Shown here in pieces: positions 55,847 through 64,000 of a stretch of 64,000 bases of DNA. Source of the stretch: Fibrobacter sp. UBA4223 (GTDB taxonomy: Bacteria; Fibrobacterota; Fibrobacteria; Fibrobacterales; Fibrobacteraceae); assembly GCA_002382975.1 (NCBI GenBank), contig DFTB01000016.1:73999-137998 (forward strand). The letters are read 5' to 3'. Position 1 is the stretch's first letter. The number at the start of each line of letters is the position of its first letter. A model generated the notes under the pieces. That model worked only from the letters and a program-made list of their open reading frames with translations. It was not told where the DNA came from and did no database searches. A program made the position numbers and the translations under genes.

Positions 55847-56899
55847 TCACCCGACCGCTGGTAAAGCACGATTTTGCTCAGCATTAAACGCCCTCACCTC
55901 ATCCGTAAGGACTTTCTGCAACTCAGCCTTAGGTAACAACAATTGATAATCAGCAACACCAATGGGCTTATCGACACCATCTAGAGAAAGTTCAACCTCA
56001 ACGGAATCTTTTGTTGCGCATAAAATAATTCCTATAGACCTATTTTCATCTTCACCACGTTCCAGACGATCTAATAAAGACAGATAGAAATTCATTTTAC
56101 CAACATATTCCGGCTTAAATTCGCCAATTTTCAGGTCTATAGCCACAAGACTTCTTAACTGGCGATTAAAGAAAAGCATATCGACCTTTCTTATTTTACC
56201 ATTGTATTCCAAAACATGTTGATTTCCAATAAAGGCAAAGCCCTTGCCCAACTCAAGAAGGAACTGCTTAACTTTTTCAACCAGTTTCTTTTCAAGTTCA
56301 ACTTCCTCTAAGGAATCGGTTACGCCTAAAAAACCAAGGTTATACGAACTTCGGAATGTTTCGTTCGCAAATTCGACCTGGTTCTCAGGAAGGGTCTTTT
56401 TGAAATTATTTGCCGGGTTGCTCAAAACGGCATGTTCGTACATTTGCATTTGAACGGCATTAACAAGTAAATCGCGAGGCCAGCCCTTAGAAACGCATTC
56501 CGTTGCATAAAAAAGCGCACGGTCATCATCACCCGCCACAAAACGCATCAGTAACAGTATATGTCCCCAAGGCAAAAGTGCAACAGCCTGTTGCACTTTT
56601 GGCGCACTAAGACTAAAACGCTCATAAAATTTTTTCATATCCCACAAACTTCGCGGAGACAACCCCATATCAGGAAAACGTTCCTTCAAATCAACCGAAA
56701 GACGTTTGACAACGGCGTTTCCATGCTTACTTTCCAGTTTCCGTTCATGAAGCAGTTTACCTATTTCCCAATAGGCGGTATTCTCGCTCGCATTGAGTTG
56801 GCGGGCGATGCTTATCCTGGTTTCGTTAATTACTGCGACAGCCTGTCGCAGAATTTCATTGTATTCAGATTCTTGTTGTTTTACGGGCTTTTTGGCCAT
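55847..56899 (-). CDS. DUF1016 (YhcG-type) protein with PD-(D/E)XK nuclease fold
   Basis: 350 residues. N-terminal DUF1016_N domain (INETRISIARQLNASENTAYWEIGKLLHERKLESKHGN, read in parts; then LSPRSLWDMKKFYERF and VALLPWGHILLLMRF) and C-terminal DUF1016 nuclease-like domain: GKGFAFIGNQHVLEYNGK, KVDMLFFNRQLRSLVAIDLKIGEFKPEYVGKMNFYLS, giving the D...DLK core of PD-(D/E)XK folds. The family is common in accessory regions and its role is unsettled; a link to restriction-type functions has been suggested. Two perfect palindromes lie inside the coding sequence (56573, 56833) and one 42 nt before the start. AT-rich compared with genes to the left. Confidence 0.88.
   Translation of the reverse strand: MAKKPVKQQESEYNEILRQAVAVINETRISIARQLNASENTAYWEIGKLLHERKLESKHGNAVVKRLSVDLKERFPDMGLSPRSLWDMKKFYERFSLSAPKVQQAVALLPWGHILLLMRFVAGDDDRALFYATECVSKGWPRDLLVNAVQMQMYEHAVLSNPANNFKKTLPENQVEFANETFRSSYNLGFLGVTDSLEEVELEKKLVEKVKQFLLELGKGFAFIGNQHVLEYNGKIRKVDMLFFNRQLRSLVAIDLKIGEFKPEYVGKMNFYLSLLDRLERGEDENRSIGIILCATKDSVEVELSLDGVDKPIGVADYQLLLPKAELQKVLTDEVRAFNAEQNRALPAVG
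56573..56601. repeat. 29-nt perfect palindrome inside the DUF1016 gene
   Basis: Arms of 14 nt (CAAAAGTGCAACAG and its complement) around one central C. It encodes KVQQAVAL, just before the conserved LPWGH motif. Confidence 0.85.
56833..56851. repeat. 19-nt palindrome inside the DUF1016 gene
   Basis: Arms CTGCGACAG and complement around a central C; it encodes RQAVA near the N-terminus. Same core as the palindromes at 56941 and 58094. Confidence 0.8.
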
Positions 56900-57260: not shown

Positions 57261-58088
57261 TTACAGTCCCATCTCCTTCACCTCCCTAATCAAGAAGTTT
57301 TCTAATTGTTGCCTGTCGGGAAGTTGAAGCTTGTATGTTGAGACAAACAGTTTCTCGTCCATGCCGTTTAATACATATTGGACCATTTTCGGTCCTTTTT
57401 CCGTACAGAGTAAAATCCCGATCGGGGGATTGTCCCCGTCCACCATCTCACAATCCTTGAAATAAGAGATGTAGGCGTTCAATTGAGCGGCATGCTCAAT
57501 GCGAAACTTGCCGACCTTCAATTCCACAATTACATTGCAGTGCAACAGACGATTGTAAAGAACCAAATCGATAAAATAATACTCGTCGTCAATGATGATG
57601 CGTTTTTGTCTGGCCTCGAAGCAGAACCCTTTGCCCATCTCCAACAGGAACTCCTGCAAATGATCCATGATTGCTTGCTCCAATTCTGTTTCGGAGAATT
57701 CATCCTTGGCATCCAGATCTAAAAAATCAAGAGTATACGCATCTTTAACCGACAAGACCGCGTCAGCACCACCTTTTTCCACCCGTTGCAACAGTAGTTC
57801 CGGCTTTTTGCTAACCCCACTTCTGAAATAGAGCTTCGTATCAATTTGTCGGCGAAGTTCCCTCACGCTCCATGTGCCCTTGATGCATTCCAATTCGTAA
57901 AAGAAGCGTTCCATTGGATCGGCGATGGAAAGAATTTCCCTAATATGGGTGAATGACAAATGGGTCAGCAGAATTTCTGGCGGCGTCATGAATTTGTGAT
58001 TCACTGAATCACAAATCTCGTTGGAGCGCTCTTTTCCAACATTATTCAAGCTCTGAGTGCTGATTGGATACTTAGAATTGTCAATCAT
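57261..58088 (-). CDS. DUF1016 (YhcG-type) protein, 3' part of an interrupted gene
   Basis: 275 residues. It begins in the linker of the family (TPPEILLTHLSFTHIREILS, then RFFYELECIKGTWSVRELRRQI) and continues through the complete PD-(D/E)XK-like domain: GKGFCFEARQKRIIIDDEYYFIDLVLYNRLLHCNVIVELKVGKF (D...ELK core) to the normal end. The N-terminal DUF1016_N half is encoded by the next ORF upstream in the same frame; only a TAA separates them, directly followed by this ATG. A perfect palindrome (57992-58016) encodes ICDSVNHKF near the start. Either a pseudogene by one nonsense mutation or a split two-protein form. Confidence 0.8.
   Translation of the reverse strand: MIDNSKYPISTQSLNNVGKERSNEICDSVNHKFMTPPEILLTHLSFTHIREILSIADPMERFFYELECIKGTWSVRELRRQIDTKLYFRSGVSKKPELLLQRVEKGGADAVLSVKDAYTLDFLDLDAKDEFSETELEQAIMDHLQEFLLEMGKGFCFEARQKRIIIDDEYYFIDLVLYNRLLHCNVIVELKVGKFRIEHAAQLNAYISYFKDCEMVDGDNPPIGILLCTEKGPKMVQYVLNGMDEKLFVSTYKLQLPDRQQLENFLIREVKEMGL
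57992..58016. repeat. 25-nt perfect palindrome in the DUF1016 linker
   Basis: Arms ATTTGTGATTCA and complement around a C. Outer seven nt of each arm are the same as in the palindrome at 58094; the inner five differ on both arms in a compensating way. Confidence 0.9.
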
Positions 58089-58418
58089 TTACAATTTGTG
58101 CGACACTGTCGCACAAATCTGTGGATACCTAATGTAAAACAATCGGCATATATTAAGCATTGAACGGTCTAGCCCCTTGATGGACAACTTGTCCGCCAAA
58201 TTCTGCAATAGGCGGACCCCGTACTTCGCTCGGTCGCTCCCCTCTTGCTCATATTCGACTATATAGCAGCCGATAGCCCAATTTCGTATTGTCAGCAGCT
58301 GGTTTACGGCACCCTTGGCAACGGAACTTGTCGCGTTATGGACATTTTTTACCCGTTCTGCAAGGTTTTCAAAAGTTGTTCCGTCAGCCTTGCCGATAGG
58401 CGACACACGCTTATTCAT
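58089..58418 (-). CDS. DUF1016_N fragment, 5' part of the interrupted gene
   Basis: 109 residues with an AAGGAG ribosome site before ATG 58418. VNQLLTIRNWAIGCYIVEYEQEGSDRAKYG, then LADKLSIKGLDRSMLNICRLFYIRYPQI is the first half of the DUF1016_N domain; in intact relatives the chain continues through a linker to the LSF/LPWxH helix and the nuclease domain. Here it stops at TAA right after ICATVSHKL, in the same frame as the following ORF. The palindrome at 58094-58118 encodes these last residues. Confidence 0.75.
   Translation of the reverse strand: MNKRVSPIGKADGTTFENLAERVKNVHNATSSVAKGAVNQLLTIRNWAIGCYIVEYEQEGSDRAKYGVRLLQNLADKLSIKGLDRSMLNICRLFYIRYPQICATVSHKL
58094..58118. repeat. 25-nt perfect palindrome at the DUF1016 interruption
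   Basis: Arms ATTTGTGCGACA and complement around a C, three nt before the interrupting TAA. Shares TGCGACA with the palindromes at 56833 and 56941. Confidence 0.9.
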
Positions 58419-58500: not shown

Positions 58501-58665
58501 GCGCCCACACATATACACATTCGAGCACTATAAATATAAACTTTCTAGGGGTGAATGTCAAGAGTTTTTTGGAAAATTTTTGAAAGAGAGATGCGCCCTT
58601 CTCGGCAAAGCCTTGCCCCGTAACGGCCCGACTGACACATTAAAAGATATAACATAAAAGGGGCT

Positions 58666-58688
58666 TATAGCCCCTTTATAATAATTTT
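58666..58688 (-). terminator. Terminator of the four-gene AAA operon
   Basis: Minus strand: AAAGGGGCT, ATA loop, AGCCCCTTT followed by TATG; ten nt after the stop of the zinc-ribbon gene. Symmetrical enough to act both ways. Confidence 0.75.
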
Positions 58689-58697
58689 TAAAACAGA

Positions 58698-59741
58698 TTA
58701 ATCCTTGATGAGACGAACATAGAAATAAAGGCCCTCTACCGCAGATCGATTATCCCAACGATCAAAACTGATATAAGTACTGGAGCGATCTATTTCCCAA
58801 CCAGTTTCATAAAAGTGATTTTTATTTTTTTGATTTGTCCATTTTAACCACCATTTAGTATTTTCCCCCCGAGAGGAAAAAGGAATCAAAAATCCACAAC
58901 GATACCCTCCCGGCAATGCAGAAAATCCATAGGTATCTAGACCTCTCCCTTCCTCAACATCAACATTGATATCCTTATAGAATTCTTTCATCGAATCATC
59001 CACATCTTCATCACCCATATTGGTCCATTTATTTGACTTCAAATGCGGAATGGCTGACTTACAACGTTTTTCTTTAATGATAAATTTTTCCATAGATGTC
59101 ACTTCTTCAATCGAAGGCAAGTGCCACCCTTCAGGGACTGCTTTAGCCAAAGCATTAAGAGAATACATATACCCATATTTGTCAAGATACTTATAATCAT
59201 TTTCATAAACACAACATCCTTCACCAACATCATATTTCAAGTTTTCCGCCAACCAAACTTGGTCGCCAATCTTACAAGTCTTGTACACTTGTCCATCGCG
59301 AGGATCTTTGAAGGTTCCCTTTCCATCACCAACAACAACATCCGTCTTTAACCCAATCGCATCGGTAATCAAAGAAATCATCTTCGCAGCAGAATCCCCA
59401 TTTATTCCGAATTTATCACATAGGACATTTGCCGATTCTTGTACAATCGCACCTTGTTCTTCGGAGGGCATATCCAAAGCTGAACTTAAGCGATCAGGAA
59501 TATTTTTTATTTGAAGCAACTTAATAACATCGCGGTCATCAGCATACATTTCGGGCCAATCCCCCATATAACGATCTAGGCGATTGTTATTCTCTTCTTT
59601 GAATATGGACGGACCATATTCGTCAACGAATTCTTTTAGAAACTCGTCAATTGTTTTTGGAGTTTTCGGCACTTCCGTACCGCAAAACGGGCATACTGCC
59701 CATTTTTCATTCAGTTCTTCACCGCATTTTGTACATTTCAT
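58698..59741 (-). CDS. Zinc-ribbon plus FISUMP-domain protein, cytoplasmic
   Basis: 347 residues from ATG 59741 with GGAG seven nt upstream. Residues 1-22 are a zinc ribbon (CTKCGEEL...CPFCGTE, two CxxC pairs). A helical middle of about 120 residues follows, with no signal peptide. From about residue 145 a FISUMP domain: DPRDGQVYKTCKIGDQVWLAENL (read as DPRDGQVY and IGDQVWLAENLKY), PEGWHLPSIEEVTSMEKFI, FSALPGGYRCG and YFYVRLIKD. FISUMP domains are otherwise exported in this window, so a cytoplasmic one fused to a zinc ribbon is unusual. Last of four genes, 35 nt after the previous one. Confidence 0.82.
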   Translation of the reverse strand: MKCTKCGEELNEKWAVCPFCGTEVPKTPKTIDEFLKEFVDEYGPSIFKEENNNRLDRYMGDWPEMYADDRDVIKLLQIKNIPDRLSSALDMPSEEQGAIVQESANVLCDKFGINGDSAAKMISLITDAIGLKTDVVVGDGKGTFKDPRDGQVYKTCKIGDQVWLAENLKYDVGEGCCVYENDYKYLDKYGYMYSLNALAKAVPEGWHLPSIEEVTSMEKFIIKEKRCKSAIPHLKSNKWTNMGDEDVDDSMKEFYKDINVDVEEGRGLDTYGFSALPGGYRCGFLIPFSSRGENTKWWLKWTNQKNKNHFYETGWEIDRSSTYISFDRWDNRSAVEGLYFYVRLIKD

Positions 59742-59776
59742 AAGAAACTCCTGTTTAATTGAATACTGTTTTAAAA

Positions 59777-61279
59777 TCAATCAAAAAGACTTAAAAAAGA
59801 ATCAAAACAATCTCCAACAAAATCACAAACAGAACTCACTACACTCCCAACGCCTTCTGCAACAGCACAGAACGCATCGCAAGCCACATCGCGAACCATT
59901 TGCGCACCCTTCACGACCGCCTTACATAGTGTAGCCGTGGCTGTGTAAGCAACAGCTCCAACTACAGCACCAGCAGCAGCGCCAACAAAAGGCATACCAA
60001 TAAGAGATGTTACAGCGGAGCCAACTGCCGCGCCAACACCTTCGGCAACAGCTAGTCCCGCAGCGGCCGATATCGTGGTCGCTTCAATTTCTTCTAGGCC
60101 CTCTTTAAGGCCTAACTCCCCATCAGCAATTTGAGACAATATCTTTATATCCTCAACGGCAACAAAGGCGACATTAGCAATAGTCGCTGCTGATGTTCCC
60201 TTAGGAATGAAAGTGATGACATCCTTCTCTACAGCGACTTTAACTGCACAAGTCGTCGCATCGAGCATTGCCGATGTCGCACCACCTTTGATCGCAGCCA
60301 AAGCAACATCTTCCGCTTCAACCTGTTCTCCATTTGCAAGTTTCGAGACTATCTCCATGCCTGCGCTCATGCCCGCACCTAGAACACCCGCGCAAGCGGC
60401 ACTTTTAGCAATGCCAACACTCAAGTCCCTCATCTTGTATTCGTTCCAATTCAAGAGATTGTCAAAATTGCCGCTCTGCGCCTCTTCTTGAATTTGCTTG
60501 GTCCGCTCATAAGATATAGGATTGCTTGTTGCACCACTGGGTGTCTCTATCTGATTTACAGCATTCTTTATGCTACCTTCCTGACCATCAGGAACAAGCC
60601 CCTTTTGTCCACGGTACCCCCCATCTTTCCGAAGAGCCTGATTTGTCGCCTCAGGAGTCTTACAATCTTTTGCCTGAAATTTTTGCGCATATTTTTGACC
60701 TGAATCAACATTATCTATGGCAATATCAACGCCCTTACGAGTATAACCATGGGATGAATCAGGTATACGTGCTACACGACCAGATTCCATTCTCGCCGTT
60801 TGGCTCATATTAAGAGTTTCGACATGATGTTGTTCAAAAATAAAGCCATGTAGATTCGGATTTTTACTAACCGTTCCAGATTGATTCATCATGGCCCGGG
60901 CCATCGCCTTATTGCTTTCGACTAGTTGCGAACTCAAGCTGTTCAGATAATTACAGGACATCACCGAGCCAACAGATGCACCCGATGCAACCGAATCTAT
61001 CTCCGACGCGAACCAATTGTATTTGTCTCGTCCTTGAGACATCGCCTTGGAAAGCGATTCCTTTTTCTCTCGCGTAACCTGTTGGCTTTTTAAGGCATCC
61101 CTGACAAAAGCATCAGCATCTTCTTTTGGCATATCAGGAAGACGCTTGCACAAGGCCTCTGCCATCCACTGTGTCGCATCTTCTCCTTGATGTGCAAGAG
61201 CCTCTTGTTCGAACTCTTTATATATCTTTCCGAACTCTTCTAGCTGCTCTTTATTCATGTCATAGTTTTGATCTGGCAT
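59777..61279 (-). CDS. Putative nuclease-like protein with C-terminal glycine/alanine zipper
   Basis: 500 residues, GGAGGG ribosome site. Residues 1-130 are helical and charged. At about 143-215, HGFIFEQHHVETLN, then KGVDIAIDN, then YAQKFQAKDC gives an E...D...QxK pattern resembling PD-(D/E)XK nucleases; this is my inference from motif spacing. The C-terminal 200 residues are hydrophobic and Gly/Ala-rich (AGVLGAGMSAGMEIV, AAAGLAVAEGVGAAVGSAV, VGAAAGAVVGAVAYTATATL), as in membrane-inserting glycine-zipper proteins. No signal peptide. Placed three nt after the AAA+ gene, it is the likely effector of the operon. Nothing more specific can be claimed. Confidence 0.65.
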   Translation of the reverse strand: MPDQNYDMNKEQLEEFGKIYKEFEQEALAHQGEDATQWMAEALCKRLPDMPKEDADAFVRDALKSQQVTREKKESLSKAMSQGRDKYNWFASEIDSVASGASVGSVMSCNYLNSLSSQLVESNKAMARAMMNQSGTVSKNPNLHGFIFEQHHVETLNMSQTARMESGRVARIPDSSHGYTRKGVDIAIDNVDSGQKYAQKFQAKDCKTPEATNQALRKDGGYRGQKGLVPDGQEGSIKNAVNQIETPSGATSNPISYERTKQIQEEAQSGNFDNLLNWNEYKMRDLSVGIAKSAACAGVLGAGMSAGMEIVSKLANGEQVEAEDVALAAIKGGATSAMLDATTCAVKVAVEKDVITFIPKGTSAATIANVAFVAVEDIKILSQIADGELGLKEGLEEIEATTISAAAGLAVAEGVGAAVGSAVTSLIGMPFVGAAAGAVVGAVAYTATATLCKAVVKGAQMVRDVACDAFCAVAEGVGSVVSSVCDFVGDCFDSFLSLFD

Positions 61280-61282
61280 ACC

Positions 61283-62791
61283 TTACCCTCCATTTTTACC
61301 AGCACAATTTGCTTCCATAAAGTCATACTTTTGAATATCCTTACGAAGTTCATCAATCTTATCCTTCAAAGTCACCGATATAGACTTCGTTTTCTTCACG
61401 GAATTCAGCAAATCATTCGTCGTTATAACAGGAACATCGTTTATAAAAGCCTCTTCGATAGCATTTTTTACGACTGCTTCCAAGTCAACGCCACTATAAC
61501 CATCTGTTTTCTTTGTCAAAGCAATAGTATCTATTTCAGAATTCCACTTACCTCTCTTTTCCAAGTGGATCCGCAAAATCGACCGACGCTCATCGGGGTC
61601 AGGCAAATCGACAAAGAACAATTCATCAAAACGACCACGACGCATAAATTCAGGTGGCATTTTTGCAATATTATTCGCCGTCGCCACAATAAAGACAGAA
61701 CTCTCCTTCTCTTGCATCCAAGTCAGGAACTGGCCAAACAAGCGTGTCGTCACCTCGTTTCCGCCAATAGAACTGCCTACACCGGCAAAAGCCTTTTCCA
61801 ATTCATCAATCCACAAAACACAGGGGCTAATCGCCTCGGCAAGCTTTAACGCCTTGCGCATGTTATTTTCCGATTCCCCCACATATTTTCCGAGCAACCG
61901 GCCGACATCCAAACGGACTAGAGGCAGTTCAAAAAGATTTGCCGTCGCCTTCGCAGTCAAGCTCTTTCCACAACCGGGCATACCCACAATGAGAATACCT
62001 TTAGGGACATCAACCCCAAACTTAATGGCGCGATCAAGATCCTTAAATATTTCCGCCTTGCGGCGCAGCCATTGCTTCAGATTATTTAATCCACCGATAT
62101 CATCAACCTTTTCATGGAAGTTAACGATTTCGAGCATACCGGCCTTTTTTACCAGTTGTTGTTTTTCGGTTATAATCAGCTGTTTATCGCTAGCCTTGAT
62201 ATCCCCACCATCTCTATAAGCAAGATTTAAAATCTGCTGTATCTGAAACTCGTTCAGTCCTTTAAATGATAGTGCAATTTCATCTACAACATCCGATTCA
62301 ACCTTTATATCAAGATCTTTCGCATAGTCAGCAACAATACCCTTGATTTCATTTAGATCCGGCAACGGAACATCAAAAATAGTGATGAGATTTTCCAGTT
62401 CCTCCGGAATCACCAACACTTCAGACACAATGAAAACTGTTTCGCGATAGCCTTCCCGATAAACATTATCTTCCGCTATTTTCTTGAGCAGGGCAATAAC
62501 TTTAGGATTCTTAAGTTCATTATGAACATCTTTTAGAATAACAAATGTTTCTCGGTCAAAGCCATAATCCATCGTCTGCTTCAAAAAGGATTCTAGTGAC
62601 GCTTCAAGCATCGGATGTTTATTCTGAAAATCAACAAATCCTAGCGCATTGTTAAATTCGACTTTCTTTGCTTTTTCGGAAACCTTGGATATAACATCAT
62701 CAATGACCTTAAAATCAAAATGATTGATGTATATAATCGGATGAAGAGCGTCTACGTAAGACGTCAATATATCAACAGCATTTTTCTGCAT
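61283..62791 (-). CDS. AAA+ ATPase, Ycf46-like
   Basis: 502 residues, GGAGGTG ribosome site. N-terminal 220 residues match the regulatory half of Ycf46-type proteins (VDALHPIIYINHFDF, FVILKDVHNELKNPKVIALL). The ATPase module has Walker A VGMPGCGKSLTAKA, VGRLLGKYVGESENNMRKAL, Walker B CVLWIDELEKAFAG, sensor 1 FIVATANNIAKMPPEFMRRGRFDELF with Arg fingers, and a SGVDLEAVV sensor 2 region. Such ATPases remodel or activate partner proteins. It is followed after three nt by the putative effector and preceded by the unknown protein two nt away. Confidence 0.88.
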   Translation of the reverse strand: MQKNAVDILTSYVDALHPIIYINHFDFKVIDDVISKVSEKAKKVEFNNALGFVDFQNKHPMLEASLESFLKQTMDYGFDRETFVILKDVHNELKNPKVIALLKKIAEDNVYREGYRETVFIVSEVLVIPEELENLITIFDVPLPDLNEIKGIVADYAKDLDIKVESDVVDEIALSFKGLNEFQIQQILNLAYRDGGDIKASDKQLIITEKQQLVKKAGMLEIVNFHEKVDDIGGLNNLKQWLRRKAEIFKDLDRAIKFGVDVPKGILIVGMPGCGKSLTAKATANLFELPLVRLDVGRLLGKYVGESENNMRKALKLAEAISPCVLWIDELEKAFAGVGSSIGGNEVTTRLFGQFLTWMQEKESSVFIVATANNIAKMPPEFMRRGRFDELFFVDLPDPDERRSILRIHLEKRGKWNSEIDTIALTKKTDGYSGVDLEAVVKNAIEEAFINDVPVITTNDLLNSVKKTKSISVTLKDKIDELRKDIQKYDFMEANCAGKNGG

Positions 62792-62793
62792 GG

Positions 62794-63741
62794 CTACACC
62801 TCCATATACAGAAGACTGTTGTTGTAGTTGTTTTTAAAGTCAATTCCCTTTAAGATGACAAACATATTGTTTACATCACCAGATCTTAATTCAGTTCCCT
62901 TGTCTTTTAATGCTCGAACCCTAGATTCGGAACCCATGGACAAAATCATAAACCGTTTTGTTTCATCAGGTTCAATATCTTTCCAATACGAATCTGTATT
63001 TTCAGAGAAAATTTTAAGATTATCCTTTAATATGCATTTCAAAGATTCTTCCTGAAGGAACTTACACATACAATTATAGATACGACGTTTATTCTCATAA
63101 TACCGACATTTCTCTATATCCCCATACTGAAGATCGACATCGAGAGACTCCTTGCCATCTGCCGCAACAATAAGCTCCGGCACATAATACTTACGAAGTT
63201 CGTCAAAGGATACGAAACAGAATAACGCCAACGGAGCCAAATTTTTCATCTTGTAAAAAAGATTTTCAAAATCTAAATCCAACATCCAACTAAAATCTTT
63301 AATCAGTATTTTAGTTGCCGCCTTGATTTTAGAATAATCTTCATTGTTTTCGACAATCTTATTCAACAACTCTTCGTAACGAGTTTGGTAACTCTTAAGA
63401 ACATCATATTCCTTATCCAAGCCATCTGCATATTTCTGATGAATGCTGTCATTATTTTTTTCATATTCAATAATTGTAAGGCTTTCCTTGATAACGTTTT
63501 CATCACATTCCACATTCAGAATTTTCGAAATCTGAACAACCAAGTCTTCATCAGAAGAAGATTTAATGTCGTTAATTTTTCCAAGTTCTTCTGCATAGCC
63601 CTGAACATCCAACCAACGGGTCAAAAGACCATTCTTATAGTAATTCAAAACATCCTGTATGCAGAAATGTTCGCGAAGATCATCCAAAGTCCTAATGGAA
63701 GAATTATCGCACTTTAAATTGAATTTGATTGTCTTGGCCAT
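62794..63741 (-). CDS. Unknown protein with conserved RTLDDL/DVLxYY N-terminal region
   Basis: 315 residues from ATG 63741 (AAGGA site); ten more codons are open upstream. The N-terminus reads MAKTIKFNLKCDNSSIRTLDD, LREHFCIQDVLNYYKNGLLT, RWLDVQGYAEEL. I recall this kind of N-terminal module from other uncharacterised bacterial proteins, but cannot name it. Residues 70-250 are helical and Lys/Glu-rich; the C-terminus (FMILSMGSESRVRALKDKGTELRSGDVNNMFVILKGIDFK) looks beta-rich. First gene of the operon. No signal peptide or membrane segment. Function unknown; sensor or adaptor is only a guess from position. Confidence 0.75.
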   Translation of the reverse strand: MAKTIKFNLKCDNSSIRTLDDLREHFCIQDVLNYYKNGLLTRWLDVQGYAEELGKINDIKSSSDEDLVVQISKILNVECDENVIKESLTIIEYEKNNDSIHQKYADGLDKEYDVLKSYQTRYEELLNKIVENNEDYSKIKAATKILIKDFSWMLDLDFENLFYKMKNLAPLALFCFVSFDELRKYYVPELIVAADGKESLDVDLQYGDIEKCRYYENKRRIYNCMCKFLQEESLKCILKDNLKIFSENTDSYWKDIEPDETKRFMILSMGSESRVRALKDKGTELRSGDVNNMFVILKGIDFKNNYNNSLLYMEV

Positions 63742-64000
63742 ATAGCATTCCTTTTTTTTGAATTTTCTCACTTCGTAAATAAATATATCACAAACCGTAA
63801 AGAAACGAACAAAAATTTACAACAAAAACTTCTTTCACAAAAAAAACATGCCCAATCAATAATAAAACAAGCAGTTTCTACCCAAAACACCAATTTTAAA
63901 TTATTCCAACTTGGAATAAATCGGATCAGCACCAGAATTCGCCGGGGCGTTGCGGGGGCGGCGTCTGAGCTCCCGCTAGTGATGTGAACCCCGAAAGTTG
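63742..64000. other. AT-rich 5' flank of the AAA operon and right island edge
   Basis: Very AT-rich to about 63920, with CCAACTTGGAATAAA-type symmetry near 63905, then abruptly GC-rich. The 29-nt inverted copy of the 57144 repeat is at 63941-63969. No gene is seen. Confidence 0.6.
63941..63969. repeat. Right copy of the inverted repeat bracketing the island
   Basis: GCCGGGGCGTTGCGGG is the exact reverse complement of 57156-57171; the following GGCGGCGTCTGAG continues the match to the left copy with a few changes. Confidence 0.7.

Follow-up and report, generated by a model that had tools for sequence, protein, structure and literature searches.

Does a compact operon of four genes in a Fibrobacter genome encode a system of its own, or has chance brought its members together? 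The question arises at positions 58,698 to 63,741 of the DNA stretch analysed here, 64,000 nucleotides of contig DFTB01000016.1 from Fibrobacter sp. UBA4223 (GCA_002382975.1; hereafter the window), where four minus-strand genes that we call NMOD, AAA, EFF and FIS, in this order, are separated by gaps of exactly 2, 3 and 35 nt. An initial annotation had pointed to this tight spacing, which the coordinates of the open reading frames (ORFs) confirm, and had read the genes as a sensor, ATPase and effector arrangement, possibly defensive or toxic. Our answer is that NMOD, AAA and EFF form a genuine, recurrent and largely uncharacterised cassette. We consider it probable that this is a stand-alone antiviral or anti-mobile-element cassette, in which a nuclease/membrane effector would be gated by the ATPase and FIS would be an added variable receptor. 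New here are a cassette of three genes that stands alone, the argument that its active site is intact and the possible variable receptor.

The recurrence of the three core genes carries the first part of this answer. A scan of species genomes returned 52 loci with EFF, many from metagenome-assembled genomes, which we take to span Bacillota, Bacteroidota, Synergistota, Spirochaetota, Campylobacterota, Fusobacteriota and Pseudomonadota. In 45 of these loci, and in 30 of the 31 that have at least 3.5 kb of sequence on both sides, EFF has an AAA homologue on its own strand no more than 2.5 kb away. NMOD, detected by profile at E<=1e-5, is found no more than 2.6 kb from EFF in 34 of the 52 loci and in 26 of the 31; the distant NMODs of Helicobacter and Veillonella-type loci are weak. 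Chance adjacency of the three core genes is ruled out by this joint recurrence in distant bacteria, and the neighbourhood survey for which the initial annotation had called thus finds the co-occurrence it anticipated. FIS, which that annotation had grouped with the others, has no place in the widespread cassette and appears to recur with it in close relatives only. The sole well-flanked locus without AAA (L032) has a short EFF, and one locus counted as AAA-bearing (L058) holds both genes in pieces.

The arrangement is conserved as well. The order NMOD-AAA-EFF is found in 22 of the 52 loci and is doubled in 3 more; AAA-EFF-NMOD accounts for 3 and EFF-AAA for 5, the rest being mixed or cut off. 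With starts called by script, NMOD and AAA are at most 10 nt apart in 23 of 33 cases, and AAA and EFF at most 60 nt apart in 36 of 41. Across 24 loci and the window, the identity matrices of NMOD, AAA and EFF correlate (r 0.85-0.93), a level that none of 2000 permutations attained, and co-variation of the three genes over so wide a divergence implies selection. Two NMOD-AAA-EFF cassettes stand in tandem in L016, L034 and L037, and L016 and L034 each include one cassette of a divergent subfamily. Protein searches found 147 homologues of NMOD and, from 7,996 candidates scored, at least 196 of EFF, both at E<=0.001. NMOD has no Pfam or NCBIfam match at E<=1 and a single weak PADLOC row (0.043), and EFF has no weighty match in Pfam, NCBIfam or PADLOC; with neither gene credibly matched, a known PADLOC system was set aside. 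Three Helicobacter loci (L045, L046, L049) keep EFF and AAA and have NMOD relatives in fragments; CoCoNuT genes are reported to be similarly fragmented in Helicobacter (PMC11090510).

The proposal that EFF is a nuclease comes from its central domain. The whole-length model of EFF was poor (predicted local distance difference test, pLDDT, 55) and had membrane and helical proteins as Foldseek neighbours, with Can2 and AgeI among its VIA rows, and the core domain was therefore folded alone. The resulting model (m1cd377b90360; pLDDT 88.2, predicted template-modelling score 0.86) has the predicted element order alpha-beta-beta-beta-alpha-beta, as in PD-(D/E)xK nucleases. Its first eight Foldseek rows are Hjc resolvases, Can2 and PaqCI, and of its 50 VIA rows 28 are viral polymerase chains bearing an endonuclease, the rest being restriction enzymes, CARF nucleases and a few more; these neighbours, which we take to belong to the PD-(D/E)xK superfamily, have modest individual scores. 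With the QxK-type members of this superfamily, the Mrr-like nucleases among them, the core shares both its predicted helix-three strands-helix-strand order and its E, D and QxK residues. E149, D185 and K204 are conserved in each of the 57 rows from the loci that span the core, as well as in all 120 listed database homologues, and Q202 in the same 57 rows and 119 of the 120. The four are among just 10 invariant columns of 158 in the core alignment of the loci, which left out exact duplicates and one short row, and simple counting puts the chance of all four catalytic-type residues falling in those columns at about 8e-6; a further alignment, A1, took 36 of the 120 listed homologues. This invariance argues against an inactivated fold. 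We infer that the EFF core adopts a PD-(D/E)xK-type nuclease fold with its catalytic-type residues intact, and on this model cleavage is predicted. At the sequence level, Mrr_cat (PF04471) gave no Pfam match to EFF at E<=1 and an hhalign score of 15.6, inside the shuffle range, and searches of PDB sequences with EFF profiles returned nothing convincing.

The tail of EFF points to a membrane. It holds four segments with a 19-residue hydropathy of 1.41-1.97, and 13 small-xxx-small-xxx-small motifs follow residue 270, a number reached by 13 of 1000 shuffles. Some EFF homologues have precomputed Pfam matches to PF13488 or PF20721, which we take to be Gly-zipper_Omp and C19orf12. The E...D...QxK nuclease-like core joined to a hydrophobic tail that had been suggested for this protein is thus supported by predicted fold, invariant residues and glycine-zipper tail alike, and the structure search by which the suggestion was to stand or fall found a nuclease-like fold, at modest single scores. 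The nine closest EFF relatives (P0001-P0009) are about 110 residues longer than the window's EFF, and the five of them that were seen have in common a C-terminal module (GCYITTA...) that the window's EFF lacks. Beside another cassette lies a GTPase (L056:12190-13173) with a match to interferon-inducible-type GTPases (IIGP) and a sub-threshold AIG1 match; it also matches the EFF profile weakly (1e-7), possibly via a shared hydrophobic tail.

AAA matches PF00004 at 3.3e-30, and its closest PDB chains are of the CDC48 type. Exactly one Walker A motif occurs per protein in 40 of 40 long AAA homologues, and hhalign aligns the N-terminal half of AAA to the C-terminal half with a score of 26.6, against at most 20.6 in 60 column shuffles and at a low probability of 7%. 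By its sequence, then, AAA is a CDC48-type ATPase with a Walker A/B domain and a second, seemingly degenerate AAA unit. The initial annotation had labelled it Ycf46-like; no Ycf46-specific model turned up for it in the Pfam or NCBIfam output.

These features lead to a published counterpart. Type III-A CoCoNuT operons contain a SpoVK-like AAA protein and, beside it, a glycine-zipper protein whose PD-(D/E)xK fold is described as inactivated; that AAA protein has one dead and one live AAA unit, a tandem that the single Walker A and the likeness of the two halves of our AAA fit, and the paper remarks that CoCoNuT extensions could be stand-alone cassettes (PMC11090510). AAA and EFF correspond to this optional extension: plasmid-borne EFF relatives in the Type III-A layout are 30% identical over 68-70% of EFF and adjoin AAA relatives. 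Claimed at the outset to match no described system, the gene set is accordingly without precedent as a whole, while its AAA and glycine-zipper pair is already described in that paper; among the papers listed by a literature search that lacked most subscription papers, none describes a stand-alone NMOD-AAA-EFF system. The window operon differs from CoCoNuT in several respects. NMOD precedes AAA, EFF follows AAA rather than preceding it, AAA lacks the biotin-carrier-like domain of the plasmid form, and the catalytic-type residues that we argue to be intact belong to a fold that the paper calls inactivated. No vWA, TerY-P, CARF, McrB or McrC partner is visible, the contig (137,998 bases) ending at window base 64000 and leaving 259 bases upstream of the operon; within the same limit, the TerY-P triad (TerY vWA, PP2C, kinase) is absent from the operon genes, and a McrB-like GTPase or DUF2357 gene is absent from the four genes and the three ORFs at 55.8-58.4 kb.

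Other known systems resemble the operon in part. Can2 is among the top structural rows for the EFF core, and EFF differs from the CARF nucleases Can1 and Can2 in having no detected CARF domain and a fused hydrophobic glycine-zipper tail. IetAS, as defined in PADLOC, likewise pairs an AAA ATPase with a second gene, and our AAA domain matches IetA at 6.6e-28; the NCBIfam cut-off, however, is far above the score obtained (91.4 vs 510 bits), and the operon has no subtilase, which is presumably the IetAS partner. The vWA/MoxR ternary conflict systems and the C-type-lectin sensors linked to diversity-generating retroelements (DGRs) share the logic of NTPase and effector with a C-type-lectin-like accessory (PMC7159879, PMC10907252), but the operon has no MoxR or vWA gene, and no reverse transcriptase was found in the window genome, which is 65% complete.

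The spread of the cassette is patchy. Among 167 genomes of its phylum, the window genome alone has EFF; of 72,556 plasmid records, 15 carry it, from Klebsiella, Enterobacter, Phytobacter and Raoultella. A megablast search of the operon against E. coli genomes gave no match. On the two plasmids read, the operon that holds the EFF-AAA pair also encodes a vWA protein, a CARF nuclease, PP2C, a kinase and a helicase, and in one of them it continues into ParA/McrB-like and DUF2357 genes, the Type III-A CoCoNuT layout; NMOD was not found in either operon. Viral origin was considered and rejected, as 29 pattern stretches in viral contigs yielded no confirmed EFF. The sole record of the phage collection with an EFF relative (38% identity) is MT839117.1, an unannotated 4,561-bp 'Bacteriophage sp.' entry whose viral nature is unproven.

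Of the 39 loci whose upstream sequence extends for 1.2 kb or more, 14 carry a WYL regulator gene upstream, no further than 1 kb away and in the same orientation. The WYL profile was built from 8 of these 14, picked by position and size and confirmed as WYL by Pfam in 8 of 8, and one of the remaining six matches is a 52-residue piece. WYL proteins have been published as regulators of phage defence (PMC9122601; also PMC9122588, PMC9122589). A PADLOC scan of 174 of 285 flanking ORFs, mostly longer ones and hand-picked, gave rows that include, among the families listed, WYL, Type I restriction-modification, Type II methylases, BnzB, TIR-TM, GajB, DRT, ThsB and MADS. As a weak control, the 39 ORFs of the window's first 52 kb gave 14 PADLOC families with one member each, among them DndA/SspA, mad2, PDC-S27 and E1-E2, and no WYL. 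Since this control is weak and unmatched, our claim is one of association, with WYL regulators and with CoCoNuT operons, and stops short of enrichment. The reading of the initial annotation is supported by defence-like neighbours, namely WYL regulators, CoCoNuT plasmid operons and some restriction-modification genes; the defensive or toxic role itself is putative.

In the stand-alone antiviral or anti-mobile-element cassette that we favour, NMOD, joined by FIS where present, would sense or dock the trigger; AAA, in an assembly that is hexameric by analogy and has one dead and one live unit per subunit, would remodel or release EFF, which its glycine-zipper tail may hold at, or insert into, the inner membrane; and the released EFF would cut nucleic acid, breach the membrane or both, so that phage growth stops or the infected cell dies. 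FIS, as an added receptor of this lineage, may offer a variable binding face. Several observations weigh against this proposal. Co-variation of NMOD, AAA and EFF is also expected from shared vertical descent, and some of the 24 loci compared are near-duplicates. Several of the PADLOC models that matched flanking ORFs may catch housekeeping helicases or DNA polymerase I, both of which Pfam lists among the same ORFs. No FISUMP relative was found by phmmer in any of the 52 loci, and in generic FISUMP proteins the outer part of the domain is variable too, at 34% identity (44 pairs) as against 25% in the FIS subfamily (40 pairs) when scaffold identity is 70-80%. Finally, the CoCoNuT paper calls the nuclease fold inactivated and the protein bacteriocin-like (PMC11090510).

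That published verdict is the starting point of one alternative to which we give a real, if minor, chance: the nuclease fold would be catalytically dead and would only bind nucleic acid, the harm would come from membrane insertion of the tail as a pore-forming abortive effector, and AAA would be a chaperone keeping EFF soluble. The glycine-zipper-rich tail, with the PF13488 and PF20721 matches of some homologues, suits such an effector, and the conserved set of E, D and QxK departs from the classical D, (D/E)xK. Yet active Mrr-type enzymes use QxK, and invariance of E149, D185, Q202 and K204 to the degree calculated above is unexpected for a dead scaffold.

A second alternative, with much the same minor chance, concerns FIS, which would be an unrelated downstream neighbour lying outside the system. 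Besides the failure to find FISUMP relatives in the 52 loci, the window genome holds 43 FISUMP matches, so that chance adjacency is possible, and the 35-nt gap before FIS is wider than the other gaps. On its own strand, however, no terminator-like site is called ahead of FIS, and FIS belongs to a tight zinc-ribbon subfamily (P0241-P0257) whose members match cassette genes in the size of their longest contig in 4 of 17 cases: 36,372 bases for NMOD P0121 and FIS P0243, 5,809 for NMOD P0124 and FIS P0251, 17,484 for EFF P0003 and FIS P0253, and 5,931 for EFF P0005 and FIS P0257. Subfamily and cassette probably share contigs in these four cases.

FIS itself matches the N-terminal zinc ribbon PF13240 at 6.8e-06 and PF09603 at 8.1e-18, and exceeds the curated FISUMP cut-offs of both PF09603 (65.8 vs 33.9 bits) and TIGR02145 (115.8 vs 41.65 bits). 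Mean pairwise identity among 16 subfamily members falls from 73% in residues 1-140 and 65% in residues 141-222 to 20% in residues 223-336. P0243 compared with FIS gives 99%, 82% and 26% for the same three parts; the representative of P0121, a 90% cluster, is 99% identical to the window's NMOD. The generic FISUMP control indicates that variability of the outer part is more a property of the domain than of this operon, and it weakens the idea that FIS hypervariability is special to the window. DGRs are reported to target FISUMP domains (PMC4159848, PMC8143477). The window genome, at 65% completeness, has no RVT_1 match and no DGR template-like copy, matches of 32 and about 37 bases being all that was found. 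A bolder form of the stand-alone immune reading, in which a fast-changing, C-type-lectin-like FISUMP face on a near-invariant zinc-ribbon adaptor would license AAA to release a membrane-seeking nuclease, the face would vary without a visible DGR and similar adaptor-receptors would serve other NTPase systems of the phylum, strikes us as unlikely.

Receptor-like domains are met more than once near this system. A further genome of this genus has a locus (L102:75-8947) in which two dynamin-like GTPases precede three FISUMP proteins with two other ORFs among them; one of the GTPases ends in an FGE-sulfatase domain, the FISUMP proteins have N-terminal CxxC pairs (by eye), and the whole looks like another receptor-bearing NTPase conflict system. 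An FGE-sulfatase (C-type-lectin-like) domain also lies at the C-terminus of a Leptotrichia AAA homologue (L059:11754-14057), and an NMOD from Fredinandcohnia matches a beta-propeller weakly, under the curated cut-off.

It is considerably less probable that the cassette is a housekeeping or stress module that controls protein quality or remodels proteins of the membrane. ATPases of the CDC48/SpoVK type act as general remodellers, and AAA relatives of 35-39% identity occur in same-family genomes that lack EFF, showing that the AAA family is wider than the cassette; in two of the four such regions read, the adjoining ORFs, of about 1,080-1,100 aa, are helicase-like by eye. Such a role sits poorly with the patchiness within the phylum, plasmid carriage, tandem duplicates, WYL regulators and CoCoNuT integration described above. 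Two same-family genomes (L085, L086) have 39% AAA relatives beside ORFs of 1,079 and 1,099 aa, possibly a sister system with another partner.

That the genes are a Type III-A CoCoNuT extension cut from its parent and functionless alone is very improbable: the AAA/EFF pair does lie inside such operons, and McrB/ParA-like and DUF2357 genes stand directly upstream of the cassette in L014 and a DUF2357-like ORF in L037, but by phmmer 50 of the 52 loci lack all nine CoCoNuT/TerY-P plasmid query proteins (E<=1e-4; many loci are short, which makes this linkage count a lower bound, and distant forms are missed) and 0 of 52 have a TerY-P triad resembling the plasmid copies, NMOD, present in 34 of the 52, was not found in the two plasmid operons read, and the co-variation of the three genes over wide divergence implies selection.

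The features of the operon are listed in Table 1. A GTG 30 nt further upstream is an alternative start for NMOD and would give 325 aa. The region has 7 terminator-like sites against a shuffle mean of 4.4, so the hairpin pattern is weak taken alone. The AT-rich setting and the two DUF1016 loci to which the initial annotation had drawn attention are both present. Between 56001 and 64000, GC content in successive 2-kb bins is 0.43, 0.42, 0.46 and 0.36, whereas in the 28 preceding bins it is at least 0.50 in 23 and 0.45-0.50 in 5. Downstream of the operon, one DUF1016/YhcG nuclease gene is intact (55847-56899) and a second is apparently split, its N-terminal domain being shared by the abutting ORFs 58089-58418 and 57261-58088.

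Table 1. Operon features in window coordinates
Feature	Position	Strand	Description
NMOD	62794-63741	-	315 aa from ATG; first cassette gene; putative sensor/adaptor
AAA	61283-62791	-	502-aa CDC48/SpoVK-type ATPase
Degenerate AAA-like N-terminal half of AAA	62126-62791	-	residues 1-222; from profile comparison and Walker A count
Active-type AAA domain of AAA	61607-61996	-	residues 266-395; Walker A GMPGCGKS at residue 270 by pattern
EFF	59777-61279	-	predicted effector of 500 aa with a helical N-terminus, a nuclease-like core and a hydrophobic tail
PD-(D/E)xK-type core of EFF	60575-60853	-	about residues 143-235; E149, D185, Q202xK204
Glycine-zipper hydrophobic tail of EFF	59816-60424	-	residues 286-488
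FIS	58698-59741	-	347-aa protein with zinc ribbon, helical part and FISUMP domain; fourth gene, specific to the lineage; putative variable receptor
Highly variable outer FISUMP part of FIS	58734-59075	-	residues 223-336
Terminator-like hairpin with T-rich tail	58657-58677	-	directly after FIS; closes the operon

Our findings place a pair published as an optional extra of CoCoNuT in a different light, for in this sample it stands mostly without CoCoNuT, with a third partner and often with a WYL regulator. Being mostly CoCoNuT-free, partnered by NMOD, often accompanied by WYL and spread over many kinds of bacteria, the cassette can be tested as a minimal three-gene defence, and the residues conserved in EFF call into question the published view of its nuclease fold as inactivated. 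The variable FIS receptor, if true, would be relevant to how bacteria that lack retroelements go on varying what their immune systems recognise.

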